Assembly: GCA_021324595.1 (NCBI GenBank)
Contig: JAJPIV010000070.1
Coordinates: forward strand, 1-48,814
Length of the DNA: 48,814 nucleotides
Direction of reading: 5' to 3'
DNA from: Actinomycetota bacterium
Lineage (GTDB): Bacteria > Actinomycetota > Actinomycetes > Streptosporangiales > Streptosporangiaceae
Every line of letters begins with the position of its first letter. Positions within the stretch are counted from its first letter, which is position 1. Under the pieces are notes generated by a model. It saw nothing but the letters and a program-made list of their open reading frames with translations, made no database searches and was not told the origin of the DNA. Position numbers and translations under genes: made by a program. Positions 1,384-12,803 of the stretch are shown one piece after another.

Positions 1384-3891
1384 TCACAGCCCGGTGCCCG
1401 GTGCGCTCGCCGCCGCCATCCAGATCACGTACCGTGCAGGCCACGGGGCACCCGGCGGCCGGGTCAGCTCGTGCGGGTCCTGCGTGGTGCGCAGGTCGAG
1501 CACCCGCTGCGGCGGCCCGCCGTAGCCGGCCACCTCGCCGGGCCGGGCTCCCAGCACGACCGGGCGCCGCCCGGCGCGGAAGATGCCGCTGAGGACCGCG
1601 TCCACCGCCGGCGGCCGCGCCCCCTGCGGCAGCCACGCGGCGGGCAACCCGCAGACCCCGCGGATGACCTGGGTGAACAGCTGCGCGACCCGGCGGTCCA
1701 CGATCACGACGGACGAGGACCGGCCGAGGGCGGCGCACAGGCCGGCGACGGCGGCGTCCTCCCCCGGCCGCACCCGGTGCTGCGCGAGCCCGCCGGCGCC
1801 CGGCCGCAGGCCGCCGGACACCCCGGAGTGGCTCAGCCCGAAGCCGAACGACGTGCTCGCGGCCGGAAGCGCGACCGCGACCAGGCAGAACGCCGCGATC
1901 GCCCCGCCGGTCGCCACTCCCGCCCCGCGGTCCCTGGCCCGGCGGGCCAGCCACCCCGAAGCCCATGCCGCGAGGAGGATGAGCCCGGGCAGGACCACCG
2001 GGACCAGGCGGCGGCTCGCCCAAGGCTGGTCGGGCACGGTGAGCGGCTGCCACAGCACGGCCGCGGCGCCGGCGAGGGTCACCGCGAGCGGCAGCGCCCA
2101 CGCGAGCGCGGCGCCTGAGTCATCCCGCCAGGCAAGAAGCGCCCGCAGGCAGCGGCGGAGCAGCACGGCGGCGCCGAATCCGCCGAGCAGCACGGCGGGC
2201 ATCCCGGCATACCAGATCACCCAGTACAGGGTGTCTTCCGCGTACAGGCGGGCCGGATCGACCGGCAGTCCCTCGGCGCGCTGCAGGGCGGCCACGTAAT
2301 CGGCCGCCCCCCGGCCCAGGTCCCCGCGCGTGACCTGCAGGTATGGCCGTGCCGCGAGGAGGGCGAGCGCGATCGCGACCGCGCCGCCGGCGGCCGGCGG
2401 CAGCCACCGCAGCGGGCGGGCCGCGACCGCGCGGCGCAGCGCCCGGCGCGCCCGGCCCGGGCGGGCCAGTGCCACCAGGACGACTGCGGTGACCAGCAGG
2501 GCCCCGGCGGCGTCGCGCCCGATCGCCTCCAGGACCGGGGCCTGCGCGTCGGCGAGCGGGCGGGCCAGGACGTAGCCGGCGAGCAGGCCGGATCCGCCCC
2601 CGGCGGCCAGGCCGATGGTGAACGGGACCCCCGTGGCCGGCCGCGCCGCCAGAAGCACTCCGGCCACGGCGATGGCCGGGATGAGGTAGGCGAGCGAGCC
2701 CAGGCTCAGCAGGCTGGCCAGGCCGAGCGCCAGGCCGCCCAGGGCGCCGAGCAGCCGTGCCGGGGCGAGCAGCCGCCCGGCCGGGGCCCGCCGCGCCATG
2801 CGGGCACGCGCGGCCCCGCCTGCACGCGGCCCCGCGATCTCGCGCCGCCGGCCCGCCCGGCCGGCCGGGCCGGGCCGGTGATCATCCCCGGGCCGGAAGG
2901 CCCCGCCCGGCGCCACGGCCAGGGAGTCGGCCACCAGGCTCATCCCGCCAAAGAGCAGCAGCTGGACCGCGGGCTCGCTGAACGCGTCCCTGGCGGTGTA
3001 GATCTCCGGCAAGGTCAGCGCGAGCGCGAGCGCCGCCAGCGGCGCCCACTGCCGCCCGGCCAGCCGGCCGGCCAGCCCGCCGAAGGAGAGCACCGCGAGC
3101 GCGCCGAGCACCGGCCCGACCGCGCCGCCGCCGCGCAGGCCGCTGGTCCAGAACCCGGCGGCGAGGAGCATCGGCAGGCCGGGCTGCACCCCGGGGACGA
3201 CGGCGCCGCCCTGCTGGAAGAAGCCGATGCTGGACAGGTGCAGGCCCGCCGCGCCGCCGAATGCCGCGAGCGAGCCGGGAACCGGCAGCGATCCGTGCTC
3301 GGCGATCCAGTAGCCCGCCTGGAACGCCGCGCCCGGGGTCCGCGCGGCGAGCACGGACGGCGAGCGGAGCGCGAGCTGCCAGGCGGCGAAGCCGACGGCC
3401 ACGGCGGGCGTGCCGAGCAGCCCGAGCCAGGCCACCGCGCCCCCGGTAGTCCCCTCCGGACGGCCCCCTGCCACCGCGGGCGGCCAGCGCGCGGGCACCC
3501 GGTGCAGCGTGTTCACGGCGAGGGCCGTGGCCAGGGGCACGGCGACCAGCAGCTGGGGGACGGGGCTGAACTCGCCGGCGAGCAGCAGGCCGAGCCCGGG
3601 CACCAGCCACGCGACCAGGGCGATGGCGGGCGCGGCGGTCAGCCCGGCGAAGCCGCGGTCCGCGGCGGCGAGCCGGCCGCCGCGCGCCGGCGTGCCGGCC
3701 GCCCTGCCGTCCGAGCCGGCGTGCCGGCGGCCCTGCCGTCCGAGCCGCGCGGGGCAGCGGGCCAGCAGCAGCGCGGACGCCAGGGTCCGGGCCCGAGGGC
3801 CCGGCCGCCCCGGGCGCGGCCCGGCTGCCTCCGGGACGCCGGCGCCCGCGCCCTCGCCTGGCAGCCGCTCGGGCGGGCTCACGCGCACCAC
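1384..3891 (-). CDS. Large polytopic membrane protein, GT-C glycosyltransferase-like
   Basis: An 835-residue protein dominated by hydrophobic segments from about residue 100 on, with a soluble C-terminal domain (about 690-835). Charged loop motifs such as TARDAFSEPAVQLL resemble the region after TM helices in GT-C enzymes that use polyprenyl-phosphate sugars; this is a fold-level resemblance, not a clear family match. It is the last gene of the six-gene operon, 49 bases after a GT2 gene whose product could make its lipid-linked donor. The start GTG at 3891 is the only start codon in frame before the membrane region; no strong ribosome site is seen. The first 80 residues are low-complexity and contain a 29-bp tandem duplication, so the N-terminus is uncertain. 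Confidence 0.55.
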   Translation of the reverse strand: MVRVSPPERLPGEGAGAGVPEAAGPRPGRPGPRARTLASALLLARCPARLGRQGRRHAGSDGRAAGTPARGGRLAAADRGFAGLTAAPAIALVAWLVPGLGLLLAGEFSPVPQLLVAVPLATALAVNTLHRVPARWPPAVAGGRPEGTTGGAVAWLGLLGTPAVAVGFAAWQLALRSPSVLAARTPGAAFQAGYWIAEHGSLPVPGSLAAFGGAAGLHLSSIGFFQQGGAVVPGVQPGLPMLLAAGFWTSGLRGGGAVGPVLGALAVLSFGGLAGRLAGRQWAPLAALALALTLPEIYTARDAFSEPAVQLLLFGGMSLVADSLAVAPGGAFRPGDDHRPGPAGRAGRRREIAGPRAGGAARARMARRAPAGRLLAPARLLGALGGLALGLASLLSLGSLAYLIPAIAVAGVLLAARPATGVPFTIGLAAGGGSGLLAGYVLARPLADAQAPVLEAIGRDAAGALLVTAVVLVALARPGRARRALRRAVAARPLRWLPPAAGGAVAIALALLAARPYLQVTRGDLGRGAADYVAALQRAEGLPVDPARLYAEDTLYWVIWYAGMPAVLLGGFGAAVLLRRCLRALLAWRDDSGAALAWALPLAVTLAGAAAVLWQPLTVPDQPWASRRLVPVVLPGLILLAAWASGWLARRARDRGAGVATGGAIAAFCLVAVALPAASTSFGFGLSHSGVSGGLRPGAGGLAQHRVRPGEDAAVAGLCAALGRSSSVVIVDRRVAQLFTQVIRGVCGLPAAWLPQGARPPAVDAVLSGIFRAGRRPVVLGARPGEVAGYGGPPQRVLDLRTTQDPHELTRPPGAPWPARYVIWMAAASAPGTGL
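3686..3743. repeat. 29-bp tandem duplication, two copies
   Basis: 3686-3714 and 3715-3743 differ at one base. The unit is not a multiple of three, so the duplication changes reading frame within the N-terminal codons of the GT-C-like gene. Confidence 0.8.
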
Positions 3892-3940: not shown

Positions 3941-4801
3941 CTAGATCACCGGCGGGCGGCCCGCCCGCGTCATCCGCCACGCGGTGCGCCACGAGATCGG
4001 CCGGCGCTGGCCGGGATCGGCGCGCCAGCCCTCGGCGAAACCGCTGAACCACGCCCGGAGCGCCGCGGCGGACCGCTCGCGCGCCAGCGTGACCGCGATC
4101 CAGTCGGCCAGGTAGAGGGCGCACAGCGGCCACGGCAGGTTCCGGCGCGCCAGCCAGACCCGGTTCCTGGCGTCATGCCGGTACCAGATCGCGTGCCGGG
4201 CGTTGGGCACCGCGGGATGGCAGACGCTCACCGCGGCGTCGTACTCGATCCGGTAGCCGAGGTCGAGCAGGCGCCACGACAGGTCGGTCTCCTCGTGGGC
4301 GAAGAAGAAGGCCTCCGGCTGCCCCCCCGCCTCCAGGTACGCGGACCGGCGGATCGCGCAGACGCCCCCGGCGAACGTGGTGACGACCGACGACCGCCCG
4401 GGGTCGCCAGCCCGCAGCCTGGGGACGTGCCAGCGCCCGCCGGCCCTTCCCTCGGGGGTGACCACCCGGAACGACAGCACGGCGAGCGCGGGATCGGCGG
4501 CGAACCGGGCAGTGACGTGCTCGCCGAGCCCCGCCGGATCGGGGTACCACGCGTCGTCGTCGAGGAACAGCACCACGTCGCCGGCGCAGGCCGCCACGCC
4601 GGCATTCCGGCCCCCGGCCACGCCCGCGTTCGCGGGGAGCCGGACGATGACCGCCTCGCCGGGCAGCGCGGGGACGTCGGCGCCGTTGCCGACCACCACC
4701 AGCTGCGCCCCGGCCGCCCGCAGCGGCCCGGTGCTGGCGACCGCGCGGCGCAGCTCCCCGGGCCGGTCGCCCATGGTAAGGATGACGACCGAGAGCTTCA
4801 C
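3941..4801 (-). CDS. Family 2 glycosyltransferase
   Basis: 286 residues with a GT-A fold: VVILTMGDR at residues 5-13 (nucleotide-binding strand), NAGVAGGRNAGVA in the middle, and LFLDDDA, the DXD-type metal site, near residue 100. HEETDLSWRL later in the chain is the usual acceptor-side ED motif of rhamnosyl/galactofuranosyl-type GT2 enzymes. It transfers an activated sugar, probably from a nucleotide sugar, at the inner membrane face. GTG at 4801 has GGGAGG six bases upstream. It sits 36 bases after the CDP-alcohol phosphotransferase, so it likely glycosylates the same product. The sugar is not deducible. Confidence 0.85.
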   Translation of the reverse strand: MKLSVVILTMGDRPGELRRAVASTGPLRAAGAQLVVVGNGADVPALPGEAVIVRLPANAGVAGGRNAGVAACAGDVVLFLDDDAWYPDPAGLGEHVTARFAADPALAVLSFRVVTPEGRAGGRWHVPRLRAGDPGRSSVVTTFAGGVCAIRRSAYLEAGGQPEAFFFAHEETDLSWRLLDLGYRIEYDAAVSVCHPAVPNARHAIWYRHDARNRVWLARRNLPWPLCALYLADWIAVTLARERSAAALRAWFSGFAEGWRADPGQRRPISWRTAWRMTRAGRPPVI

Positions 4802-4837
4802 CGGAGCCTCCCGGGTCTCACCGGGGCCGCCTCGGCG

Positions 4838-5611
4838 TCACCGGAGCCGCCTGGAGGCCAGCACCGCCGCGAGATGGGCGATGACCATGAGCCCGGCGAC
4901 CCCCAGGCACGCGAGCGTGAGCGCCCGGGTCGCGGTCAGCGTCCCGGTGGCCGCGTCAATGATCGCGGCGGCCAGGATCAGCAGGGACAGCTCGACCGCC
5001 TGGGTGATCCGGTGCACCCGCAGCGCGCTGGCCAGCCGCCGGGCCAGGGCCAGGCCCGGGCTGGCGGGCGCGAGCGCCTCGTCGCCGTGGGCCGCGGGCA
5101 GGCCCGACTTCGCCCGCGCGACGACGACGTTGTCGGTCTCCGCCCTGACCAGCATGGCCAGGAGCGCCGCGGCGATCCCCGCGGTCACGTACCCCCCGGC
5201 GACGGTCAGCCGGCCCTGCGCCCGGAACGCCAGGCCGGCCAGGAGGGCGGACTCGGCCAGGTAGTGGCCGACGCCGTCGAGGTACACCCCGGCGGCGGAC
5301 TTCCTGCCACTCCACCTCGCCAGCTCCCCGTCGGAGCAATCGAGGATCAGGTAGAGCTGCACGAGGACGGCGCCGGCGACCGCGGTGGCCAGCCCGCCGA
5401 AGGCGATCACGGCCCCGGCCGCCACCCCGCACGCGATGAACGCCGCCGTCACCGCGTTCGGCGCCCAGCCCAGCCGCGCGAACACCCAGGTCGCGTACGG
5501 GGACAGCCTGCGCCCGTAGAGCCGGCCCAGCCAGTGCTCGTCGTTCAGGCGCCGCAGGATGGCCTGCGGCTGGCCCTTGGCCCTCAGCTCAGCCAGGGAT
5601 GGCGCCGACAT
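4838..5611 (-). CDS. CDP-alcohol phosphatidyltransferase family protein
   Basis: 257 residues, five to six membrane helices. The signature begins D91-C-S-D94-G-E-L-A98-R99 and continues with G108 and D112, but the last Asp of the consensus DG..AR(8)G...D...D is His116. Family members transfer the phospho-alcohol of a CDP-alcohol to a hydroxyl acceptor (phosphatidylinositol phosphate, phosphatidylglycerol phosphate and similar products). ATG at 5611 has GGAGGAG directly before it and lies 23 bases inside the upstream dehydrogenase gene, so translation is coupled. An upstream start at 5905 exists in frame but lies wholly inside that gene and codes for Arg/Pro-rich noise. The neighbours suggest it uses a CDP-alcohol made by the operon's nucleotidyltransferase. 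Confidence 0.8.
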   Translation of the reverse strand: MSAPSLAELRAKGQPQAILRRLNDEHWLGRLYGRRLSPYATWVFARLGWAPNAVTAAFIACGVAAGAVIAFGGLATAVAGAVLVQLYLILDCSDGELARWSGRKSAAGVYLDGVGHYLAESALLAGLAFRAQGRLTVAGGYVTAGIAAALLAMLVRAETDNVVVARAKSGLPAAHGDEALAPASPGLALARRLASALRVHRITQAVELSLLILAAAIIDAATGTLTATRALTLACLGVAGLMVIAHLAAVLASRRLR

Positions 5612-6644
5612 ACTCCTCCACCTTCCTGGCCGCCTGGTCCGGCGGCATCGCCAGCCGCTCCAGGATCGTGTACCGCCCGGGCCTGGTCGCCGGCGCGCGG
5701 CAGACCGCGGCGGTGAACTGCTCCGCGGACAGGCCGACCTCGCCGGGGCGCCTGGGCAGGCCGTGCCGTTCCAGGCAGGACGATATCGCCGCGAACTGCG
5801 CGGCGTCGCCCCGCAGGAAAGCGCAGAACAGGGCGCCGATCCCGGCCAGCTCGCCGTGGCTGGCCGTGCCGGGGTAGAGCTGGTTGATCGCGTGCATGAT
5901 CTCATGGTCGCCGCCGCTGCTCGGCCGGCTCGACCCGGCGACGGCCATCGCCACGCCTGACAGGATCAGCGCCTCGGCCAGGATCGTGAGGAAGCCGTCC
6001 GACGTGCTCGGGCCCGGGGCCCCGAGCACCGCGTGGGCGGCGGACCTGGCCATCGCGGCGGCGAGGCCGTCGACCGGCTCGCCGGTGTCGGCCGCGGCCA
6101 GCTCCCAGTCCGCCACCGCCGACAGGTTGCTCACCACGTCCCCGATCCCCGCGGTGGACAACGGCCCCGGGGCGCTCCGGACCCGGTCCAGGTCGACGAC
6201 CACGGCGACCGGCGCCAGGACGACGCCGTAGGAGCCGGTCCCCGACTCGTGCCGCAGCGTGCTCACCGGCGACGCGATGCCGTCGTGGGCGAGGCTGGTC
6301 GGCACCGAGACCATCGGTATGCCTGCCATGTGCGCGGCGTACTTGGTGACGTCAATGGTCTTGCCCCCGCCGATCCCGGCCACGGCCTCGAACCCGCCGG
6401 CGCGCAGCTGCCTGCCGAGCGCCACCGCGCCGTCGTAGCTGGCCTCGCCGAGGCGGAACACCTGCCGCGCGACGCCGCCGAGCTCACGGGCGATCGAGTC
6501 GCCCTGGCCGGGCCCCACGGCGATCGCGACCCGCCCTTCGGTCGCGATCCTCCGGTCGCAGAGCAGCTCGCCGAGGCCGCCGATCGCGCCGGGCCGCACG
6601 TCGATGACGAGGGGGGCGGCGAGCATGCGGGCCAGCAACGGCAT
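5589..6644 (-). CDS. sn-Glycerol-1-phosphate dehydrogenase-like (iron-containing ADH superfamily)
   Basis: 351 residues, the usual size of the glycerol/G1P dehydrogenase family. Seen: nucleotide-binding GGGKTIDVTKY at 92-102, PTSLAHDG at 115-122, probable metal ligands D169 (GIGDVVSN), H247 (GGDHEIMH) and H263 (ASHGELAG). The DHEIMHAI and SHGE pattern is closer to G1P dehydrogenases (archaeal EgsA, Bacillus AraM: S.EH...H and HGE) than to glycerol dehydrogenase. Expected reaction: dihydroxyacetone phosphate plus NAD(P)H to sn-glycerol 1-phosphate, in the cytosol. ATG at 6644 follows GAGGAGG. Operon neighbours (nucleotidyltransferase, CDP-alcohol phosphotransferase) suggest activation as CDP-glycerol of unusual stereochemistry; that is inference. 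Confidence 0.8.
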   Translation of the reverse strand: MPLLARMLAAPLVIDVRPGAIGGLGELLCDRRIATEGRVAIAVGPGQGDSIARELGGVARQVFRLGEASYDGAVALGRQLRAGGFEAVAGIGGGKTIDVTKYAAHMAGIPMVSVPTSLAHDGIASPVSTLRHESGTGSYGVVLAPVAVVVDLDRVRSAPGPLSTAGIGDVVSNLSAVADWELAAADTGEPVDGLAAAMARSAAHAVLGAPGPSTSDGFLTILAEALILSGVAMAVAGSSRPSSGGDHEIMHAINQLYPGTASHGELAGIGALFCAFLRGDAAQFAAISSCLERHGLPRRPGEVGLSAEQFTAAVCRAPATRPGRYTILERLAMPPDQAARKVEEYVGAIPG

Positions 6645-6685
6645 GATCCTCCTCTCGCGCCACGCCGGGGCGGCCTGCCGCGAGA

Positions 6686-7453
6686 CTAGCAGCGGGCGGC
6701 GATCCGCCTGGCCCGGCTCAGGTCCGCATGGTCGTCCACCTCGACCCAGTCCACGGCGCCGACCGGCGCGGCGAGCACCTCGCCGCCACGCTCGCGGAAC
6801 TCGGCGAACCCGTCCTCGTAGTACAAGCCCGGATCGCGGCGCCAGGTGGCCTCGAGCGCCGCCGCCAGGAGGGAGGCCGCGGCGGGCTCGACGAGGGTCA
6901 CCCCCATGTACTCGCCGTGCGCCAGGGCCGGGTCCATGTCCTTGGTGATCCGCGTGACCTGCCCGCGGCCGTCGAGAACGACCTTCATCTCCTCTCCGGC
7001 GAGCGGCTTGACGTCATCGATCGCGATGATGATCCGGCCCCCGGCCGAGCCGGCCCGGCCCTGCGAGCCGGCCGCCGCGCTCGCCGCGAGCAGCGTCTTC
7101 TCCACGCTCGCCGGATGCACGGTGTCCCCGTTGACGACCAGGGCGCCGCCGCGAAGGCACCCCCGGGCGAGCCAGAGTGAGTAGGCGTTGTTCCACTCCA
7201 GCGCCCGCGGATTAGGGATGAGCTCGATCGCCACGCCATGGGCGCGGCGAAGCGCAGGGACCCGGTCGGCGATCACGCCGGCCGCGTGGCCGGCCACGAT
7301 CGCGGCCTCCCGTGCCCCCGCCGCGGCCAGGTTCCGCAGCGCGATGTCGAGGATCGTCGTCTCGGCGGCGACGGGGAGCAAGGCCTTGGGCAGCGCGTCG
7401 GTCGCCGGCCGGAGCCGCCGTCCGGCTCCGGCCGCGAGAATCACCCCGATCAC
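6686..7453 (-). CDS. Sugar-phosphate/alcohol-phosphate nucleotidyltransferase
   Basis: About 255 residues. The N-terminus IGVILAAGAGRRL and PKALLPV are the nucleotide-binding and metal-binding signatures of the NTP-transferase fold. LVVNGDTVH near residue 110 gives the metal-binding Asp, and WVEVDDHADLSRAR at the end resembles inositol-phosphate or phosphocholine cytidylyltransferases (LicC/IPCT group). GTG at 7453 is preferred over the GTG at 7477: it overlaps the upstream stop as GTGA and has AGGGGAGG seven bases before it. It likely makes a CDP-alcohol for the phosphotransferase two genes downstream, the alcohol phosphate perhaps coming from the G1P dehydrogenase between them. Confidence 0.75.
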   Translation of the reverse strand: MIGVILAAGAGRRLRPATDALPKALLPVAAETTILDIALRNLAAAGAREAAIVAGHAAGVIADRVPALRRAHGVAIELIPNPRALEWNNAYSLWLARGCLRGGALVVNGDTVHPASVEKTLLAASAAAGSQGRAGSAGGRIIIAIDDVKPLAGEEMKVVLDGRGQVTRITKDMDPALAHGEYMGVTLVEPAAASLLAAALEATWRRDPGLYYEDGFAEFRERGGEVLAAPVGAVDWVEVDDHADLSRARRIAARC

Positions 7454-9051
7454 CGGGTCGCCTCCCCTGGTCGCCACCCGCGGGCCAGCACCTCCCGGCC
7501 TGCCAGCACTGCGAGGTACGCCGCCAGGCCAACGTACCCGATCACCGCGATGCCGGAGGTCGCCGCCGCCCCCGCGACGAACATCCGCGCCTCCCAGCCG
7601 ATCCCCCGCGCCTGCCGGCCGGGCGGCCCGCCGCCTGCCAGCGCGCGCCAGGTCATCGTCATCGCGCAGAGGCCGAAGACGGCCGGCCCCGGCACTGCCC
7701 AGGCGAACCCGAGCGTGGCCAGGTAGACGGACTCGCCGAGGACGAGGCAGGCGGGGGCGAGCCAGTCGAGCCGCCCGTCATGCGGGTGCCCCGAGCCGGG
7801 GGCGGCCAGCAGCATCACGACCAGGGGCGCGAGTGCGAGCAGCCCCAGGGCGGTGCGCAGGCCGAGGGAATCGACCAGGATGGCGGCGGATGCGCCCGCT
7901 ACGGCCGGGGCCAGCGGCGCGATCCGGCCCTGAACGAGCCGGCCCGCCCATCGGGCCAGGGCGCCGTCGTCGCGGCAGGCCCGGATCGCGTCCGGCTGCG
8001 CCGGCGGCGGGCGGCCGGCGACGGCACGCCGGGCGACCCCGGTGACCACGACCGGGACCGAGCCCATCCCGGCGGCAAGCACGAGGACCAGGGCCAGCCG
8101 CGGGCCGCTCACGGCCAGGCCGGCGGCCGCCAGGGCGAGCCGCGCCCACGGCGGCACGGCGAGCGCCAGGCCGATCCGGTGCCAGGCCGGGGAGCCGCCC
8201 GGCGCCATCCGGGACAGCCCGCCCGGGACGCGGACCTGGCCGCACGCGGCGACGGCGTCGGCGACCGCGGCCGCGACCAGCGCGCCGACGGCGAGCGGCC
8301 ACATGCCCGGCCAGCCTGCCGCCTGCCCGCCCGCCGCGATGCCGCCATAGATCGCGCACTCGCCCGCCGTCGCGCACGCGCCCGCGAGCCAGCCCGGCGG
8401 CGCCGACGTGGGCACGCCCGGCCCCGCCTCGCCGAGCCCCGCTCCCTGCGGTCCCGCGTCGCCGAGCCGCGCGGCCTCGCGCCCTTCGCCGGGCCCCGCC
8501 CCCTCGCGCCCTTCGCCGGGCCCCGCAGCCTCAGGTTCGGCCACGCCGGGCGGTGCAGGGCTGGCGGCGTCCCGGGCCGGCGCCGGCCCGGCGGCGCCTG
8601 GCCCGGCTCCGCTCGCGCCCGGCCAAGCCAGGCCGGGCAGCACGAGCCAGTCGGTGAAGACGGCCCCGGCGCCGGGCGCGCTCGCCGGGTCCTGATGCCG
8701 CGCGCGCCCTGCCCGCGGCGGCGTGGCGGCCCGATGCGGCGCCGGCGGCCGGCGGCCGGTGCCGGCTCGCGCGAGGAGCGAGCCAGCCAGTGCCGCGATC
8801 CCGGCCAGCCAGTCCCCGGCCGTCCCGCCGCTGAACCATCCTGCCGCGCAGAGCGCCAGGAGCAGCGACAGGCCGCTGAGCGACGCCGATGACGGTATCG
8901 GCGGAACGGCCCGGCCCGAAAGCCACGCCCGGAGACCGCGGGCCGCCGCGGCGGCCCGCGGGCCGGCCAGGAGGGCCAGGCGGACGGTGCCACCCCTGGG
9001 CGCGGCCGGCCAGCCTCCCGCGGCACCGACCAGGCGCCTGAGCCCAGCCAT
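7450..9051 (-). CDS. Polytopic membrane protein, DUF5941-like
   Basis: 533 residues, first gene of the operon. Hydrophobic segments occur at about 55-95 and repeatedly from 240 to 520, separated by a Gly/Pro/Glu-rich linker (about 165-220) containing a nine-residue tandem repeat. In the C-terminal half, CRDDGALARW and GIGWEARMFV resemble what I recall of DUF5941, a domain found beside CDP-alcohol phosphotransferases in actinomycetes; I cannot verify this without a search. No catalytic motif is recognised. ATG at 9051 follows GGAGG. It could be a transporter or membrane partner for the phospho-alcohol product. Confidence 0.5.
   Translation of the reverse strand: MAGLRRLVGAAGGWPAAPRGGTVRLALLAGPRAAAAARGLRAWLSGRAVPPIPSSASLSGLSLLLALCAAGWFSGGTAGDWLAGIAALAGSLLARAGTGRRPPAPHRAATPPRAGRARHQDPASAPGAGAVFTDWLVLPGLAWPGASGAGPGAAGPAPARDAASPAPPGVAEPEAAGPGEGREGAGPGEGREAARLGDAGPQGAGLGEAGPGVPTSAPPGWLAGACATAGECAIYGGIAAGGQAAGWPGMWPLAVGALVAAAVADAVAACGQVRVPGGLSRMAPGGSPAWHRIGLALAVPPWARLALAAAGLAVSGPRLALVLVLAAGMGSVPVVVTGVARRAVAGRPPPAQPDAIRACRDDGALARWAGRLVQGRIAPLAPAVAGASAAILVDSLGLRTALGLLALAPLVVMLLAAPGSGHPHDGRLDWLAPACLVLGESVYLATLGFAWAVPGPAVFGLCAMTMTWRALAGGGPPGRQARGIGWEARMFVAGAAATSGIAVIGYVGLAAYLAVLAGREVLARGWRPGEATR
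8475..8526. repeat. 27-bp tandem repeat within the DUF5941-like gene
   Basis: A 25-base stretch at 8475-8499 recurs identically at 8502-8526 (period 27). On the minus strand it codes for a Gly/Glu/Arg-rich nine-residue unit in the linker between membrane regions; being in frame, it can change copy number without breaking the gene. Confidence 0.75.
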
Positions 9052-9246
9052 GCGGCCTCCACCAGCGATGTGGAGCGGCCGGCCACCCCGACATGGCTGA
9101 CCGCGCTCGATCAGTCACCGAGAGTACTTTCACCGGCCCGGTTCGGGGAGGTCCTGGAAATGCGGAGCGTCTGCGCATCACGGAAGCCGGGCGGCGCCGC
9201 GAGCCCCGGGCACCGCCCGCCAGGCGGAGCCCGCCCGTTCCCCCGA

Positions 9247-9252
9247 TAGGGT
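9247..9252 (+). promoter_or_regulatory. -10 element for a leaderless ispD-like transcript
   Basis: TAGGGT lies exactly six bases before the ATG at 9259, and there is no Shine-Dalgarno sequence. A -10 at this distance would start transcription on the A of ATG. No good -35 is visible. The rest of the divergent gap (9052-9258) shows nothing certain. Confidence 0.4.
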
Positions 9253-9258
9253 CCGGTC

Positions 9259-10059
9259 ATGCGCACTGTCGCCGTCGTGCTCGCGGGCGGCGCCGGCCTC
9301 CGGCTCGGCGGGGCCGTGCCGAAGCAGCTGCGGCTGCTGGGCGGGCGGACGCTGCTTGAGCACTGCGTCGCGGCCTTCGAGCAGGCCCCGGGGGTCGATG
9401 AGATCGTCGTCGTGGTGCCCGCCGGCCTGGTGGAGGAGGCCCGGCGGATCCTCGGCGACCGGTACGGCAAGCTCCGGCAGGTGATCCCGGGCGGGGCGGA
9501 CCGGCCCGGGTCGACCTGGCGCGCGATCGAACTGCTGACCCAGGCCTACCCCGACCGGCCCGGTGAGGTGAACGTGCTGGTCCACGATGCCGCCCGGCCG
9601 CTGGTGGACCAGCGGATCATCGCGGACTGCGTGGCCGGCCTGGAGCGCTGGGAGGCTCTCGGCGTCGTGGTGCCGAGCACCGACACGATCGTCGAGGTGA
9701 CGGGCGGGCGGATGACCTCGGTCCTTGCCCGCGAGCGGCTGCGCCGCTGCCAGACCCCCCAGGGGTTCCGGCTGCCGGTGCTCCGCCGCGCCCACGAGCT
9801 GGCACGGGCCGACCCGGACGCCGGGTCGTACCGCCCCACCGACGACTGCGGGATCGTGCTGCGCTACCTGCCGGAGGTCGAGGTGCGGACCGTGCCCGGA
9901 AGCGAGCGCAACATGAAGATCACCCTGCCAGGTGACCTGCGGATCGCGGAGGCCAGGCTCGCCGAGCCCGGCGACGACGGCCCCGGCGGGAACGGCATCA
10001 GCCGCCCCGGCCGCCGGCCCGCCCCTGGCGGGACGGCCGGCGTCCCTGGCCGGGCGTGA
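9259..10059 (+). CDS. IspD/TarI-like cytidylyltransferase
   Basis: 266 residues; the last 30 are a low-complexity tail beyond the usual 230. LAGGAGLRLGGAVPKQ at 8-23 is the CTP-binding signature, VLVHDAARPLV and RRCQTPQGFRLPVL are conserved IspD/TarI segments, and NMKITLPGDLRIAE is the C-terminal substrate-binding segment. IspD makes CDP-methylerythritol in the isoprenoid MEP pathway; TarI makes CDP-ribitol for teichoic acids. No IspF or TarJ gene adjoins, so sequence alone does not decide; TDDCGIVLRYL and the setting beside envelope genes make TarI-like use plausible. It faces the G1P operon and converges with a glycosyltransferase gene 21 bases away. Confidence 0.75.
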   Translation: MRTVAVVLAGGAGLRLGGAVPKQLRLLGGRTLLEHCVAAFEQAPGVDEIVVVVPAGLVEEARRILGDRYGKLRQVIPGGADRPGSTWRAIELLTQAYPDRPGEVNVLVHDAARPLVDQRIIADCVAGLERWEALGVVVPSTDTIVEVTGGRMTSVLARERLRRCQTPQGFRLPVLRRAHELARADPDAGSYRPTDDCGIVLRYLPEVEVRTVPGSERNMKITLPGDLRIAEARLAEPGDDGPGGNGISRPGRRPAPGGTAGVPGRA

Positions 10060-10080: not shown

Positions 10081-11277
10081 TCAGCTTCGCTGGCCCGGGC
10101 GCTCGCGCGCGGCCGGTGCCAGGCGGCGCGGGCTGGTCAGGAAGCCGGCTCCCCAGCAGGCGTGCATGGTCGCGAGCACGACGGGGAGCCACGCCAGCGC
10201 CCGGCCGCGGAGCGCCCGCACGGCCGTGGCGGTCACCGCGAGGACGCCGGCGAGGTATGCCACCGGGATCACAAGGCCGGCGGTCAGCAGCCCGGGCCAC
10301 CAGCCCCCCGCGCCGGCGGCCTGGGCGCTCACGCCCACCGCGCCGGCGACCGTCCCGGCGGCTATCGCCGCGACCGCGGCCGGCGGCGCCAGGTAGCGCA
10401 GGTTGATGGTGCCGGCGTGCTGCCTGGCCACGACGCGCCGCCACCGCCCGTAGTGGAAGTACTGCTCGGCAAGCGCGGCCACGGTGGCCCTGGGCCGGTA
10501 GGTGACCCTCATCTCGGGCTGGAACCAGATCAGCCCGCCGCGCTCGCGGATCCGGTGGTTCATCTCCCAGTCCTCGGCCCGCTCGTAGCGCTCGTCGTAG
10601 CCGCCGACGGCCTCGATGGCCTCGCGGCGGAACGCCCCGAGGTAGACCGTGTCCGCCGGGCCCGGACTGCCGCCGGTGTGGAAGCGCGCCGCGCCGACCC
10701 CGGCCGGCGAGGTCATCGCCCAGGCGACCGCCCGCTGGAACGGCGTGATCCCCTCGGCGGCCATGATCCCGCCGACGTTCACCGCGCCGGTCTCCCTGAG
10801 GGTCCGCACGGCCGTGGCGATGTACCCGGGCGGCAGGAGCGCATGCCCGTCCACCCGGACGACGATGCCGTGCCGCGACGCCCGCACCGCCGCGTTCAGC
10901 CCGTCCGGGCGCTGCCCGGACGGGTTCGCCACGACGATGATCCGGCCGTCCCGCTCCGCCAGGCGCCGGGCGATCTCCTCGGTCCGGTCGCGGGACGGCC
11001 CGACGGCGATCACCAGCTCGAGCTCGCCGTCGTACTCCTGGCCGAGCACGTGCCGCACCGCCTCGGCCAGGTGCCGCTCCTCGTCGCGGACCGGCATGAT
11101 CACCGACACCGGCGGCGCGGTCCCGGCCGGGTCCGCCGCCTCCGCGGCCGCCCAGGCGCCCGCGCCCAGGCGGCCCGCGCGCGGCTCCGGGCGGGCCTGT
11201 CCCGGGCCGGCGTCCGCCCGCGGCGCCGCGCCCGGGCGCGCCCGCAGGTCACCGATCTCGCTCATGACGCTCGCCAC
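10081..11277 (-). CDS. Family 2 glycosyltransferase, membrane-anchored (ExoA-like)
   Basis: 398 residues. After a 55-residue low-complexity lead, VSVIMPVRDEERHL opens the GT-A domain; VVRVDGHALLPPGYI carries the metal-binding DXH variant, GGYDERYERAEDWEMNHRIRE the acceptor-side ED motif, and FHYGRWRRVVARQ a QXXRW-like end. The last 110 residues form two to three membrane helices. This layout matches succinoglycan-type ExoA enzymes that elongate lipid-linked saccharides at the cytoplasmic face. GTG at 11277 is supported by GGGAGG seven bases upstream; ATG at 11265 is an alternative. It lies 38 bases after the PhoH-like gene and may be cotranscribed with it. Confidence 0.8.
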   Translation of the reverse strand: MASVMSEIGDLRARPGAAPRADAGPGQARPEPRAGRLGAGAWAAAEAADPAGTAPPVSVIMPVRDEERHLAEAVRHVLGQEYDGELELVIAVGPSRDRTEEIARRLAERDGRIIVVANPSGQRPDGLNAAVRASRHGIVVRVDGHALLPPGYIATAVRTLRETGAVNVGGIMAAEGITPFQRAVAWAMTSPAGVGAARFHTGGSPGPADTVYLGAFRREAIEAVGGYDERYERAEDWEMNHRIRERGGLIWFQPEMRVTYRPRATVAALAEQYFHYGRWRRVVARQHAGTINLRYLAPPAAVAAIAAGTVAGAVGVSAQAAGAGGWWPGLLTAGLVIPVAYLAGVLAVTATAVRALRGRALAWLPVVLATMHACWGAGFLTSPRRLAPAARERPGQRS

Positions 11278-11315: not shown

Positions 11316-12803
11316 TCAGAGCGCGGCGTCCTCCAGCATCTCGGTGACCAGGGCCGCGATCGGCGAGCGCTCCGATCGCGTGAGCGTCACATGAGCGAAC
11401 AGCGGGTGGCCCTTGAGCTTCTCGATGACCGCCACCACCCCGTCGTGCCTGCCGACCCGCAGGTTGTCCCGCTGGGCGATGTCGTGGGTGAGCACCACCC
11501 GCGATCCGGTGCCGATCCGGGACAGGACGGTGAGCAGGACGCCGCGCTCCAGCGACTGCGCCTCATCGACGATCACGAAGGAGTCGTGCAGCGACCGGCC
11601 GCGGATGTGGGTCAGCGGCAGCACCTCGAGCATGTCGCGGGACACGACCTCGTCGATCACCTCCGGCGAGGTGACCGCCGACAGGGTGTCGTAGACCGCC
11701 TGCGCCCACGGGTTCATCTTGTCGGCCTCGGAGCCGGGCAGGTAGCCGAGCTCCTGGCCGCCCACCGGGTAGAGCGGGCGGAAGACCACGACCTTGCGGT
11801 GCTGGCGGCGTTCCATGACCGCCTCCAGCCCGGCGCACAGGGCCAGCGCCGACTTGCCCGTGCCCGCCCGGCCGCCGAGCGAGACGATCCCGACCTCGGG
11901 ATCGAGCAGCAGGTCCAGGGCGATCCGCTGCTCCGCGCTCCGGCCCCGCAGCCCGAACGCCTCGCGGTCGCCGCGGACCAGCCGCACGGACTTGTCGGGC
12001 TGCACCCGCCCGAGCGCGCTCCCGGCGCCCACGCAGCTGGAGTAGAGCACCAGGCCGGTGTGGCACGGCAGGCCGGCGGCCGCCTCCGACTCCAGCCTGC
12101 CCGCCTGGTAGAGCTCGTCGATCTCGGCCGCGCTCACCTCCAGCTCGACCATGCCCGTCCAGCCCGAGTCCGGCGGCAGCTCGGCGCGGTACTCCTGGGC
12201 GGCAAGGCCGATCGCCGACGCCTTGATCCGCAGCGGCAAGTCCTTGCTGACCAGGATCACCTGCTCGCCCTCGGCAGCCAGGCCGCGGGCGACCGACAAG
12301 ATCCTGGTGTCGTTGTCGCCGAGCCGGAACCCGGCGGGCAGCACGGCGGGGTCGGTGTGGTTCAGCTCCACCCGCACGGTCCCGCCGGCGCCGGAGACCT
12401 CGATGTCGGCGTCGAGGCGGCCGTGCCTCATGCGGAGGTCATCGAGGTGGCGCAGCGCCGCGCGCGCGAAGAAGCCGAGCTCGGGGTGGTTCCGCTTGGC
12501 CTCCAGCTCGGTGATCACCACCAGCGGCAGCACCACCCGGTGCTCGGCGAACCTGCCGAACGCCCCCGGATCGGCCAGCAGGACGCTGGTGTCGAGCACG
12601 TAGGTGCGGCGGCCTGCCGTTCCCCTGGCCGCCCGCGAGCGCCGCGCGCGCCGGGCCGGGGAGGCCGCCGGCGAGCCAGCGGCGCCCCGCGCCGCCGCGG
12701 TGCCTGGGACGGCCGGCGCGGGCGCCGTCCGGGTGCGGGCCGCGCCGCGGGCCTGGCTGGCCGCGGATGCTGAGCATGCTGCGGATGCTGCGGAAATGAC
12801 CAC
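11316..12803 (-). CDS. PhoH-family ATPase with N-terminal PIN domain (PhoH2/YlaK type)
   Basis: 495 residues. A 65-residue Ala/Arg-rich lead precedes a PIN RNase domain: [13 protein letters not shown] with catalytic Asp71, ITELEAKR with an acidic site, and [12 protein letters not shown] plus [11 protein letters not shown] with the later acidic residues. The PhoH domain follows, with Walker [12 protein letters not shown] (near residue 300) and Walker [10 protein letters not shown]. Family members are reported as toxin-like RNA-unwinding, sequence-specific RNases; no antitoxin (PhoAT-like) ORF is evident just upstream. GTG at 12803 has GGGGAG five bases before it. It is transcribed away from the uppS-like gene across a 308-bp gap. 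Confidence 0.9.

Follow-up and report, generated by a model that had tools for sequence, protein, structure and literature searches.

The window (the whole 48,814-nt stretch of contig JAJPIV010000070.1, Streptosporangiaceae, forward strand) contains five adjacent minus-strand genes that overlap or are separated by gaps of less than 50 bases. The ORF coordinates bear out the operon proposed in a preliminary description of this DNA. The locus and its surroundings comprise:

1384..3891, minus strand: GT-C-like multi-pass membrane protein (835 aa), a neighbour outside the widely conserved core
3941..4801, minus strand: GT2 glycosyltransferase (PF00535, 41.3 bits), last of the five operon genes
4838..5611, minus strand: membrane CDP-alcohol phosphotransferase (CDPOH; 257 aa, PF01066)
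5589..6644, minus strand: glycerol-1-phosphate dehydrogenase (G1PDH) homologue of the EgsA/AraM superfamily (DH; 351 aa)
6686..7477, minus strand: LicC-like cytidylyltransferase (NTP; 263 aa), a proposed CTP:glycerol-1-phosphate cytidylyltransferase
7450..9051, minus strand: membrane protein with a degenerate CDP-alcohol phosphotransferase domain and a DUF5941 domain (533 aa)
9052..9258: divergent intergenic region of 207 bp between the operon and ispD, from coordinates
9259..10059, plus strand: ispD (PF01128, 150 bits), a housekeeping neighbour outside the pathway
10081..11277, minus strand: second GT2 glycosyltransferase (PF00535, 70.8 bits), a frequent neighbour

The NTP gene overlaps the membrane-protein gene by 28 bp and CDPOH overlaps DH by 23 bp; the gaps are 41 bp (DH to NTP), 36 bp (GT2 to CDPOH) and 49 bp (GT-C to GT2). 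The CDP-alcohol phosphotransferase starts at approximately 5611 (257 aa); a longer ORF from 5905 overruns DH, and this additional start is taken as spurious. Judging from its coordinates, the intergenic region 9052..9258 is a possible shared promoter region of the operon and ispD.

A search for conserved gene order, set beforehand as a test, found the order kept. Among the best 80 named loci, the complete five-gene order occurs in 63. NTP and DH are adjacent in all 78 assessable named loci, DH and CDPOH in 74 of 80, CDPOH and GT2 in 72 of 78, and DUF5941 and NTP in 70 of 76; with these counts the five-gene arrangement is not due to chance. In six of the 17 loci without the full order (L093-L096, L099 and L100), an opposite-strand gene follows DH and replaces CDPOH and GT2, while the other misses either have no called DUF5941 or GT2 gene where expected or reach a contig end. 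The system extends beyond the source contig: a Streptomyces version has already been tied by synteny to teichoic acid genes (PMC13118837). This araM-tagGH-CDP-alcohol block consists of the same kinds of genes and is filed under teichoic acid biosynthesis, but the sections that treat it offer synteny and annotation, without a donor route, a TagD comparison or stereochemistry.

The dehydrogenase is a G1PDH homologue, as had been proposed, and groups with EgsA/AraM, apart from the glycerol dehydrogenase GldA. In a tree of 25 rows with three GldA rows as root, the other 22 are set off by a branch supported at 100/100, and 12 actinobacterial rows form a clade (96/89) separate from AraM; the program flagged some branches as long (root branch 3.46; L028 group). 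In an earlier tree of 57 rows, since set aside, E. coli GldA sat next to an archaeal row, its branch having a length of 10. The protein scores 230.8 bits with the G1PDH model NF002022 versus 50.4 bits with the GldA model. It misses the curated NCBIfam cut-off of 413 bits and is therefore called a homologue only; an annotated bacterial sn-G1PDH from Priestia (229.9 bits) is likewise under the cut-off. The best solved-structure relatives are archaeal G1PDHs (140.7 bits), nearly equalled by 3ce9 (129.6 bits), which was deposited as a glycerol dehydrogenase and nonetheless groups with the G1PDH-like rows of the tree. The active-site residues align with those of archaeal G1PDH, and the segments HDGIASP and SRPxSGxxH nearly match. 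The residues D169 (80 of 81 sequences, one Glu), H247 and H263 (81 of 81 each) are presumably metal ligands, and the substrate motif (H/N)DG, here H120-D121-G122, is present in 81 of 81. The specificity predicted from superfamily and motifs is for sn-glycerol-1-phosphate (G1P) over glycerol-3-phosphate.

The NTP protein matches PF00483 and PF12804 over cut-off, and its best solved relative is the CTP:phosphocholine cytidylyltransferase LicC (1jyk). Its motifs are invariant in the aligned orthologues (PK 77/77, NGD 78/78, NNAYS 78/78), as are the active-site residues R21 (76/76), K31 (77/77) and D118 (78/78). CTP and G1P are its putative substrates, judging from the gene partners. An activity converting CTP and G1P to CDP-1-glycerol, the step proposed for the operon, is known from Archaeoglobus fulgidus, whose glycerol phosphate cytidylyltransferase activity prefers G1P (Rodrigues et al. 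2017, via PMC8262930); the activity is archaeal and serves glycerophosphoinositol, and PMC8262930 describes the enzyme behind it as not identified. A related bacterial case is Caulobacter CpgD (CDP-glycerate, COG1213), a COG1213-type cytidylyltransferase that contributes to an envelope molecule by activating a three-carbon phosphate; unlike the enzyme proposed here, CpgD uses phosphoglycerate and is reported to give no product with glycerol-1-phosphate (PMC12275187). The NTP residues were matched to those of CpgD by eye, and the protein is a putative COG1213 member.

We note that the core of the operon is the cytidylyltransferase-like gene beside the G1PDH homologue, a pair kept by many soil actinobacteria. 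Among 246 sampled genomes of the class, DH (counted at >220 bits) occurs in 60 and NTP in 60, and both occur in 59 of the 61 genomes having either. The two single-gene exceptions (G112 and G125) sit at contig edges. In one genome (G107) both genes are approximately 10 kb apart.

The CDPOH protein narrowly exceeds the PF01066 cut-off (23.5 versus 22 bits), and Archaeoglobus AF2299 is its best match by sequence as well as by fold (Foldseek E 4e-6; in the VIA comparison Z 17.2, rmsd 3.6, 208 aligned), placing it within the fold. In the family motif, D(x)2DG(x)2AR(x)8-9G(x)3D(x)3D, the fourth Asp serves as catalytic base. The complete motif is absent from the CDPOH protein, which reads D..DG..AR...G...D...H; His occupies the fourth position in 73 of 75 sequences including the window, with Ala and Pro in the other two. 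If the protein acts as the family does, the catalytic base would have to be this His or another residue. AF2299 and the IPCT-DIPPS system likewise combine cytidylyltransferase-type and CDP-alcohol phosphotransferase enzymes, the latter sharing the fold, whereas in the operon the two are separate proteins, a G1PDH is added and the fourth Asp is changed to His.

The description of the first gene as DUF5941-like holds for the C-terminus, which aligns with PF19365 proteins, although the 533-aa protein has no Pfam match at E 0.01. This part is 36% identical to the protein of a related locus (L110) that scores 111.4 bits for DUF5941 (PF19365). The N-terminus lies where relatives have a CDP-alcohol phosphotransferase domain, and the catalytic motif of that family was not found in the protein of the window. 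At the same site relatives harbor two genes (PF01066, ~500 aa; PF19365, ~200 aa), and Streptomyces a single DUF5941 protein of 605 aa. The L110 DUF5941 model matches AF2299 with a Foldseek probability of 1.00 but an E of 0.08. In the VIA comparison (Z 13.9, rmsd 4.9, 187 aligned) its top 14 entries all have the CDP-alcohol phosphotransferase fold and the next reaches 6.2; helical models that lack a clear match can also attain a Z of 14, and the gap to unrelated rows is the better sign. DUF5941 is accordingly predicted from the model to be a CDP-alcohol phosphotransferase fold without its motif.

The occurrence of the pair is linked to that of TagF-type polymerases (PF04464). A strong PF04464 match is found in 56 of the 61 genomes with either pair gene versus 28 of the 185 without (Fisher p 3e-28, ancestry ignored; Mantel-Haenszel p 0.002 inside the five families that vary). 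Among the nearest 41 relatives the figures are 24 of 27 genomes with DH and none of 14 without. The TagD model exceeds 105 bits in none of the 61 genomes with the pair versus 10 of the 28 PF04464-strong genomes without it, and TIGR01518 (TagD) is over cut-off in none of the nearest 41 relatives. In one family (f28) TagD is present in 14 of 18 genomes, but one member (G263) has the pair and PF04464 without TagD. In 7 of the 21 Streptomyces-like genomes (g49) the TagD family is matched weakly (58-66 bits, cut-off 165), by what could be a glycerol-3-phosphate cytidylyltransferase; f19 and f21 genomes without PF04464 likewise show matches of 56-84 bits. In five of the 61 pair genomes PF04464 is not strong: two have moderate matches (E ~1e-31), and no match was found in G126, G187, at 68% completeness, and G269. 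Another user of the product must therefore exist. Conversely, 18 genomes with strong PF04464 lack both the pair and a strong TagD, which means that there are other donor routes too.

Genomic proximity of the pair and PF04464 is the exception. No PF04464-like ORF occurs in any of the 80 named loci, with flanks of at most 10 kb; such an ORF is present in 4 of 14 hand-picked stretches of the class in which DH was called, and in 1 of 9 belonging to the wider phylum. One locus (L183) has the order NTP-DH-ABC permease-ABC ATPase-GT2/PF04464 fusion; another (L182) combines LCP, GDPD, NTP, DH, an ABC pair, both CDP-OH genes, GT2 and PF04464; L181 is likewise counted as an adjacency, and L235, outside the class, has PF04464 (TarF-like, 268 bits)-NTP-G1PDH. 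The pair adjoins PF04464 and exporters in a few lineages. In the genome of the window, the PF04464 polymerase (G000:C152, 328 bits) lies on a different contig from the operon and is a GT2/PF04464 fusion of 1081 aa (L192). The same genome has two TagG-like permeases, and the ORF after each resembles an ABC ATPase on visual inspection. In the first 17 kb of the window, the part used for comparison, gene calling yielded no ABC exporter, LCP or GDPD.

The reading to which we incline, by a modest margin over doubt, is that the operon makes and uses activated G1P for the envelope, the pair converting G1P to CDP-1-glycerol in place of TagD, for teichoic-acid-type polymers. The dehydrogenase would reduce DHAP to G1P, and the LicC-like enzyme would form CDP-1-glycerol from G1P and CTP, the enantiomer of the Bacillus donor. 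TagF-type polymerases, encoded elsewhere in the genome of the window and beside the pair in a few lineages, would consume it. The operon's own membrane CDP-alcohol phosphotransferases would probably load a lipid-linked primer or anchor with glycerol phosphate, the GT2 enzymes may prime or decorate, and TagGH-like and LCP proteins would export and attach the chain. The acceptor, and the way in which PF04464 and CDP-alcohol enzymes would share the work, are inferred. Compared with the TagD-TagB/TagF-TagGH-LCP system of Bacillus, a CDP-glycerol-type donor, PF04464 polymerases, a TagGH-like exporter and, in relatives, a nearby LCP protein are shared; the proposed route differs in that no TagD was found, the donor would come from G1PDH and a LicC-like enzyme in opposite configuration, and membrane CDP-alcohol phosphotransferases are part of the operon. 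The earlier proposal of a route from DHAP via G1P and a CDP-alcohol to an envelope acceptor is supported and narrowed: since TagF-type polymerases tend to be present where the pair is, and adjoin it in a few lineages, a teichoic-acid-type polymer is favoured over a lipid.

A phosphoglycerol membrane lipid or lipoteichoic-acid anchor as the main product, with CDP-alcohol phosphotransferases moving G1P to lipid and a secondary link to TagF, is rather improbable, yet the strongest of the alternatives. It would account for two CDP-alcohol phosphotransferase-type proteins and the DUF5941 fold in the operon of most relatives, for the 80 named loci and five genomes in which PF04464 is absent or not strong, and for actinobacterial lipoteichoic acid, whose synthesis, with no clear LtaS, is reported to follow an unknown route (PMC3196553). 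It fits poorly with the PF04464 co-occurrence, with the six close relatives that have no CDPOH and GT2 after DH, and with three loci in which no CDP-alcohol gene was called near the pair, L183 (19.9 kb) and the short contigs L194 (6.7 kb) and L195 (9.7 kb); in all three exporter genes follow the pair, in L183 also a polymerase.

The PF04464 family also takes in CDP-ribitol enzymes, the ribitol-phosphate polymerases, and the pair might then make another CDP-polyol (ribitol, arabitol or erythritol) with DH reducing a ketose phosphate other than DHAP. A mannitol dehydrogenase-like gene adjoins the pair in L235, and the wall polymer of S. griseus is given as mainly ribitol phosphate (PMC13274773). 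The same source assigns S. griseus a separate TarIJ gene and a glycerol-phosphate unit; together with the nearly archaeal active-site segments of DH and the pair genomes without strong TagD, this makes a polyol unlikely. Very unlikely is a soluble phosphodiester solute of the di-myo-inositol phosphate or glycerophosphoinositol type: the NTP and CDP-OH proteins are distantly similar to the IPCT/DIPPS family (36.8 and 31.6 bits) and the fold matches 4mnd, but the scores are far under the family cut-off (580 bits), and relatives have TagGH-like exporters, LCP and GDPD genes nearby, which suits an exported polymer. An archaea-type isoprenoid ether lipid, as made from AraM via PcrB (heptaprenylglyceryl phosphate) in B. 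subtilis, scarcely merits consideration, for despite the G1PDH homology the dehydrogenase forms a separate clade with a cytidylyltransferase partner instead, the family search found no prenyltransferase in the operon, and PcrB/GGGP synthase (PF01884) is over cut-off in none of 41 relatives including the genome of the window (B. subtilis and archaeal controls were detected).

G1P is regarded as the archaeal enantiomer, and bacteria have been described as likely to lack CDP-1-glycerol (PMC8262930). Whether a large part of the Actinomycetes, including Streptomyces and Streptosporangiales, make it via an archaeal-type G1PDH and a LicC-like enzyme, and with it mirror-image teichoic acids, we regard as close to evenly balanced. 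The glycerol-phosphate units would be opposite to those of Bacillus wall teichoic acid and of the same configuration as Bacillus lipoteichoic acid. If true, a donor of archaeal stereochemistry would be routine in many actinobacteria, including antibiotic producers, and the donor source of genomes with TagF-type polymerases but without TagD would be explained. An LtaS-less route to actinobacterial lipoteichoic acid would be provided, its origin testable (PMC3196553), and the predicted chirality of the wall polymer would be measurable with stereospecific GlpQ (PMC7086022). DUF5941 would gain a function, as would genes whose annotation goes no further than 'iron-containing alcohol dehydrogenase family' or 'phosphocholine cytidylyltransferase family'.

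The GT-C-like gene lies directly downstream, as noted earlier, but falls outside the widely conserved unit: 10 of the 81 neighbourhoods, counting that of the window, contain its cluster (cluster 28), mostly those of close relatives. The 835-aa protein has no Pfam match above cut-off, and the name "GT-C" comes from the preliminary description, which was made from sequence alone. The ispD gene is the sole strong IspD match in its genome (next best 34 bits), and the second GT2 (cluster 7) is found near 64 of the 80 named loci.

The reading that we modestly favour is that the operon makes and uses activated sn-glycerol-1-phosphate (G1P), in the form of CDP-1-glycerol, for the cell envelope, in place of the TagD route. 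The five tightly spaced genes are present as given in the preliminary description, except that its start of the CDP-alcohol phosphotransferase did not hold and is now placed near 5611. Pfam assigns the dehydrogenase (DH) to PF13685 (88.6 bits), the nucleotidyltransferase (NTP) protein to PF00483 and PF12804, the CDP-alcohol protein to PF01066 (23.5 bits, cut-off 22), and the GT2 protein to PF00535; the search with the first operon gene (7450-9051) returned no match. The window is a complete contig (48.8 kb, 75% GC) of a 4.09-Mb draft genome, and the named relatives nearest to it in the genome scan are MAGs whose titles read Actinomycetes, Streptosporangiales or Streptosporangiaceae. A tRNA-Met (cat) is located at 1256-1332, just beyond the GT-C-like gene, and we take the window genes at 11316, 13112 and 14107 to be PhoH, UppS and PEPCK, respectively.

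The DH scores 230.8 bits on the G1P dehydrogenase (G1PDH) model versus 50.4 bits on the glycerol dehydrogenase model. The cut-off of the former (413) is missed, as it is by an annotated sn-G1PDH from Priestia (229.9 bits). The closest solved relatives are archaeal G1PDHs (approximately 140 bits), followed by 3ce9, deposited as a glycerol dehydrogenase (129.6 bits); GldA-type chains reach 65.9 bits at most. In a GldA-rooted tree of 25 rows, which were aligned by local pairs and omit locus L029 as well as most actinobacterial rows, all other rows, 3ce9 included, form one group. The actinobacterial DHs form a separate clade (96/89) next to the EgsA, AraM and 3ce9-like groups, with the branching order among these groups not fixed and with long-branch warnings. 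A first tree of 57 rows was set aside, as its careful search was incomplete and two branches (E. coli GldA and L029) had a length of 10. The residues that we take to be metal ligands, together with the HDG motif, are kept in at least 80 of 81 sequences. By model scores, the 25-row tree and conserved residues, the DH lies apart from the GldA glycerol dehydrogenases, and the initial assignment is upheld: the protein is best described as an EgsA/AraM-type G1PDH homologue with putative specificity for G1P. In some genomes there is a second group of distant G1PDH-like proteins, represented by loci L028 and L030 and by matches of approximately 82-114 bits; both loci join AraM in the 25-row tree.

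The closest solved relative of the NTP protein, CYTIDYLYLTRANSFERASE, is LicC, a CTP:phosphocholine cytidylyltransferase (35.7 bits), and its catalytic motif residues are nearly invariant among aligned orthologues. Synthesis of CDP-glycerol would be permitted by the enzyme type. For CpgD, the available excerpts of PMC12275187 state that no product was formed with glycerol-1-phosphate.

The order membrane gene, NTP, DH, CDP-alcohol phosphotransferase and GT2 is repeated among the flanks of 29 relatives' loci, in three of which the sole DH-type gene is a distant paralogue. Among the named loci, which are the best 80 of at least 509 from the genome scan, the full five-gene order is found in 63, and NTP and DH are adjacent in all 78 that have both positions on the locus. 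Six close relatives (L093-L096, L099 and L100) differ after the DH: a gene on the opposite strand takes the place of the CDP-alcohol and GT2 genes. This gene encodes 580-615 aa and is followed by a gene of 428-473 aa, with LCP and GT-C-like genes beyond. Neighbours within the 80 named loci comprise ispD (67), a second GT2 (64), an LCP family protein (63), a glycerophosphodiester phosphodiesterase (GDPD)-like protein (32), an ABC permease (10) and an ABC ATPase (10); we take such ABC-2 permease and ATPase pairs to be TagGH-like. The ispD neighbour in the window is ruled out as a TarI-like partner, being the sole strong IspD of this genome.

The modelled CDP-alcohol protein of the window (mean pLDDT 87.5) matches the fold of AF2299 (Z 17.2, rmsd 3.6, 208 aligned). 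Its motif reads D..DG..AR...G...D...H. The fourth Asp, which presumably has a role in the motif of CDP-alcohol phosphotransferases, is replaced by His in 73 of 75 sequences, and once each by Ala and Pro. A second CDP-alcohol protein of the relatives has the canonical fourth Asp in 40 of 41 motif-bearing sequences, with six more gene calls, some short, being without the motif; a search of the window and of several close relatives did not reveal this second motif. DUF5941 (PF19365), modelled on the L110 protein (L110:8587-9243) from 49 sequences (mean pLDDT 89.1), is predicted to have a CDP-alcohol phosphotransferase fold (Z 13.9, rmsd 4.9, 187 aligned) without the DxxDG motif. The DUF5941 part of the window protein (7450-9051) is fused to another degenerate domain, in which low-complexity sequence occupies the expected motif site. 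The operon thus encodes up to three related membrane domains, some inactive-looking, for which a scaffold role is our guess.

In the class-level sample of 246 genomes, DH (counted above 220 bits) and NTP (E below 1e-25) occur in 60 genomes each, and 59 genomes have both; the absent partner in G112 and G125 would fall past the contig end. Strong matches to PF04464, the CDP-glycerol glycerophosphotransferase family of TagF-type polymerases (E below 1e-60; weaker ones, in G095, G124, G073 and others, left uncounted) are found in 56 of 61 genomes with DH or NTP versus 28 of 185 without, where G141 (127.7 bits for G1PDH) is scored as lacking DH. None of these 61 genomes has a TagD match (TIGR01518) above 105 bits, versus 10 of the 28 PF04464-strong genomes without DH or NTP; weak TagD matches of 53-84 bits, seen with and without PF04464, were left uncounted. 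Fisher tests across genomes take no account of ancestry, and the sole correction attempted, a Mantel-Haenszel test within five varying families (PF04464 cut at 1e-20 instead, G125 scored as without DH), yields p 0.002. In family f28 a strong TagD match is present in 14 of 18 genomes, and G263 has the pair and PF04464 without TagD. Among the 41 nearest relatives, strong PF04464 accompanies DH (above 300 bits) in 24 of 27 genomes versus none of the 14 without it. None of the 41 passes the TagD cut-off, and TagD was dropped as donor enzyme because strong matches are absent from these relatives and from the 61 genomes. Counter-evidence is provided by the five of 61 genomes that miss strong PF04464, by 18 PF04464-strong genomes with neither donor route (pair or strong TagD), and by weak TagD-family matches (58-66 bits) in 7 of 21 Streptomyces-like genomes (g49, taken by us as Streptomyces since it groups with L170 and L171 in both trees).

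Gene arrangements around the NTP-DH pair
Streptomyces fungicidicus, annotated run: DUF5941, phosphocholine cytidylyltransferase family, iron-containing alcohol dehydrogenase, CDP-alcohol phosphatidyltransferase, glycosyltransferase, ABC permease, ABC ATPase, hopanoid genes
L183 (family f11): NTP, DH, ABC permease, ABC ATPase, GT2/PF04464 fusion; CDP-alcohol genes not between
L194 and L195 (short contigs): NTP, DH, ABC permease, ABC ATPase, as the first four genes of L183
L182, within 20 kb: LCP, GT2, GDPD-like, NTP, DH, ABC pair, both CDP-alcohol genes, GT2, PF04464 fusion
L181: PF04464 approximately 4.4 kb from DH
L186: pair separated from the ABC genes by a GlfT2-like galactofuranosyltransferase
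L235 (outside the class): TarF-like PF04464 gene (268 bits) adjoining NTP and a G1PDH homologue (261.7 bits)

In S. fungicidicus (L170:19826-31017) hopanoid and MEP genes follow directly after the operon. At L235 (7334-11789) a mannitol dehydrogenase-like gene lies beside the TarF-like, NTP and G1PDH genes, and the polyol could differ. In G107, DH and NTP are approximately 10 kb apart.

PF04464-like ORFs occur in 4 of 14 class stretches and 1 of 9 outside-class stretches with a called DH (hand-picked), and in none of the 80 named loci, 53 of which extend past 18 kb. PF04464 beside the pair is a minority arrangement; as a general rule, such adjacency is ruled out by the named loci. The absence from these loci slightly lowered our confidence in the CDP-1-glycerol route and in polymers of mirror-image type. 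It slightly raised the standing of a rather improbable rival, for which it is one item of favourable evidence, namely that the main product is a phosphoglycerol membrane lipid or lipoteichoic-acid anchor and the link to TagF polymerases secondary. An archaeal ether lipid route is very improbable, with no PcrB match over the cut-off in 41 relatives, this genome included.

In the CDP-1-glycerol route, DHAP would be converted to G1P, which with CTP would yield CDP-1-glycerol for transfer onto envelope acceptors; PF04464 enzymes would polymerise, and the CDP-alcohol proteins may prime or anchor. Whether many Actinomycetes in this way, via G1PDH and a LicC-like enzyme, build teichoic acids that are the mirror image of Bacillus wall teichoic acid is close to evenly balanced. 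According to the excerpts of the papers cited here, Bacillus wall teichoic acid contains sn-glycerol-3-phosphate (G3P) and its lipoteichoic acid G1P (PMC7086022), the latter derived via phosphatidylglycerol (PMC8262930). A polyglycerolphosphate structure is common to both polymer types in Streptomyces hygroscopicus, and actinobacteria are described as without clear LtaS orthologues (PMC3196553). The wall polymer of S. griseus consists of ribitol phosphate with terminal glycerol phosphate, and TagF and TarIJ genes are named (PMC13274773). As excerpted, PMC8262930 reports that the TagF-like polymerase Cps7D forms polymer from CDP-1-glycerol in vitro and Cps3D none, that two tested TagD-like enzymes accept both enantiomers with G3P preferred, and that an Archaeoglobus activity, its enzyme not assigned there, favours G1P (citing Rodrigues et al. 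2017); its authors judge CDP-1-glycerol likely absent in bacteria.

The synteny of a Streptomyces block of araM, tagG, tagH, a CDP-alcohol gene and a nucleotidyltransferase has already been tied to teichoic acid biosynthesis (PMC13118837); the excerpts of that paper contain no mention of a G1P-based donor route, exclusivity with TagD or the DUF5941 fold. Our searches of openly licensed PMC papers gave none on any of these three points, none that connects an actinobacterial G1PDH with CDP-glycerol, and none containing the word DUF5941. Teichoic-acid donor synthesis as such is known; the G1P-based variant, suggested by comparative genomics, appears to be new.

Two further gene arrangements are noted. 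Family f47 (L231-L234) has a divergent G1PDH-like gene (approximately 240 bits to the A1 model) that likewise comes after an NTP gene, and the pair may serve another purpose there. Downstream of this G1PDH-like gene, L232 and L234 carry a type I phosphodiesterase/nucleotide pyrophosphatase, after which L234 has a bacterial sugar transferase. L184 (G160) carries a second DH copy, with no NTP called nearby, approximately 5.5 kb from two PF04464 ORFs.
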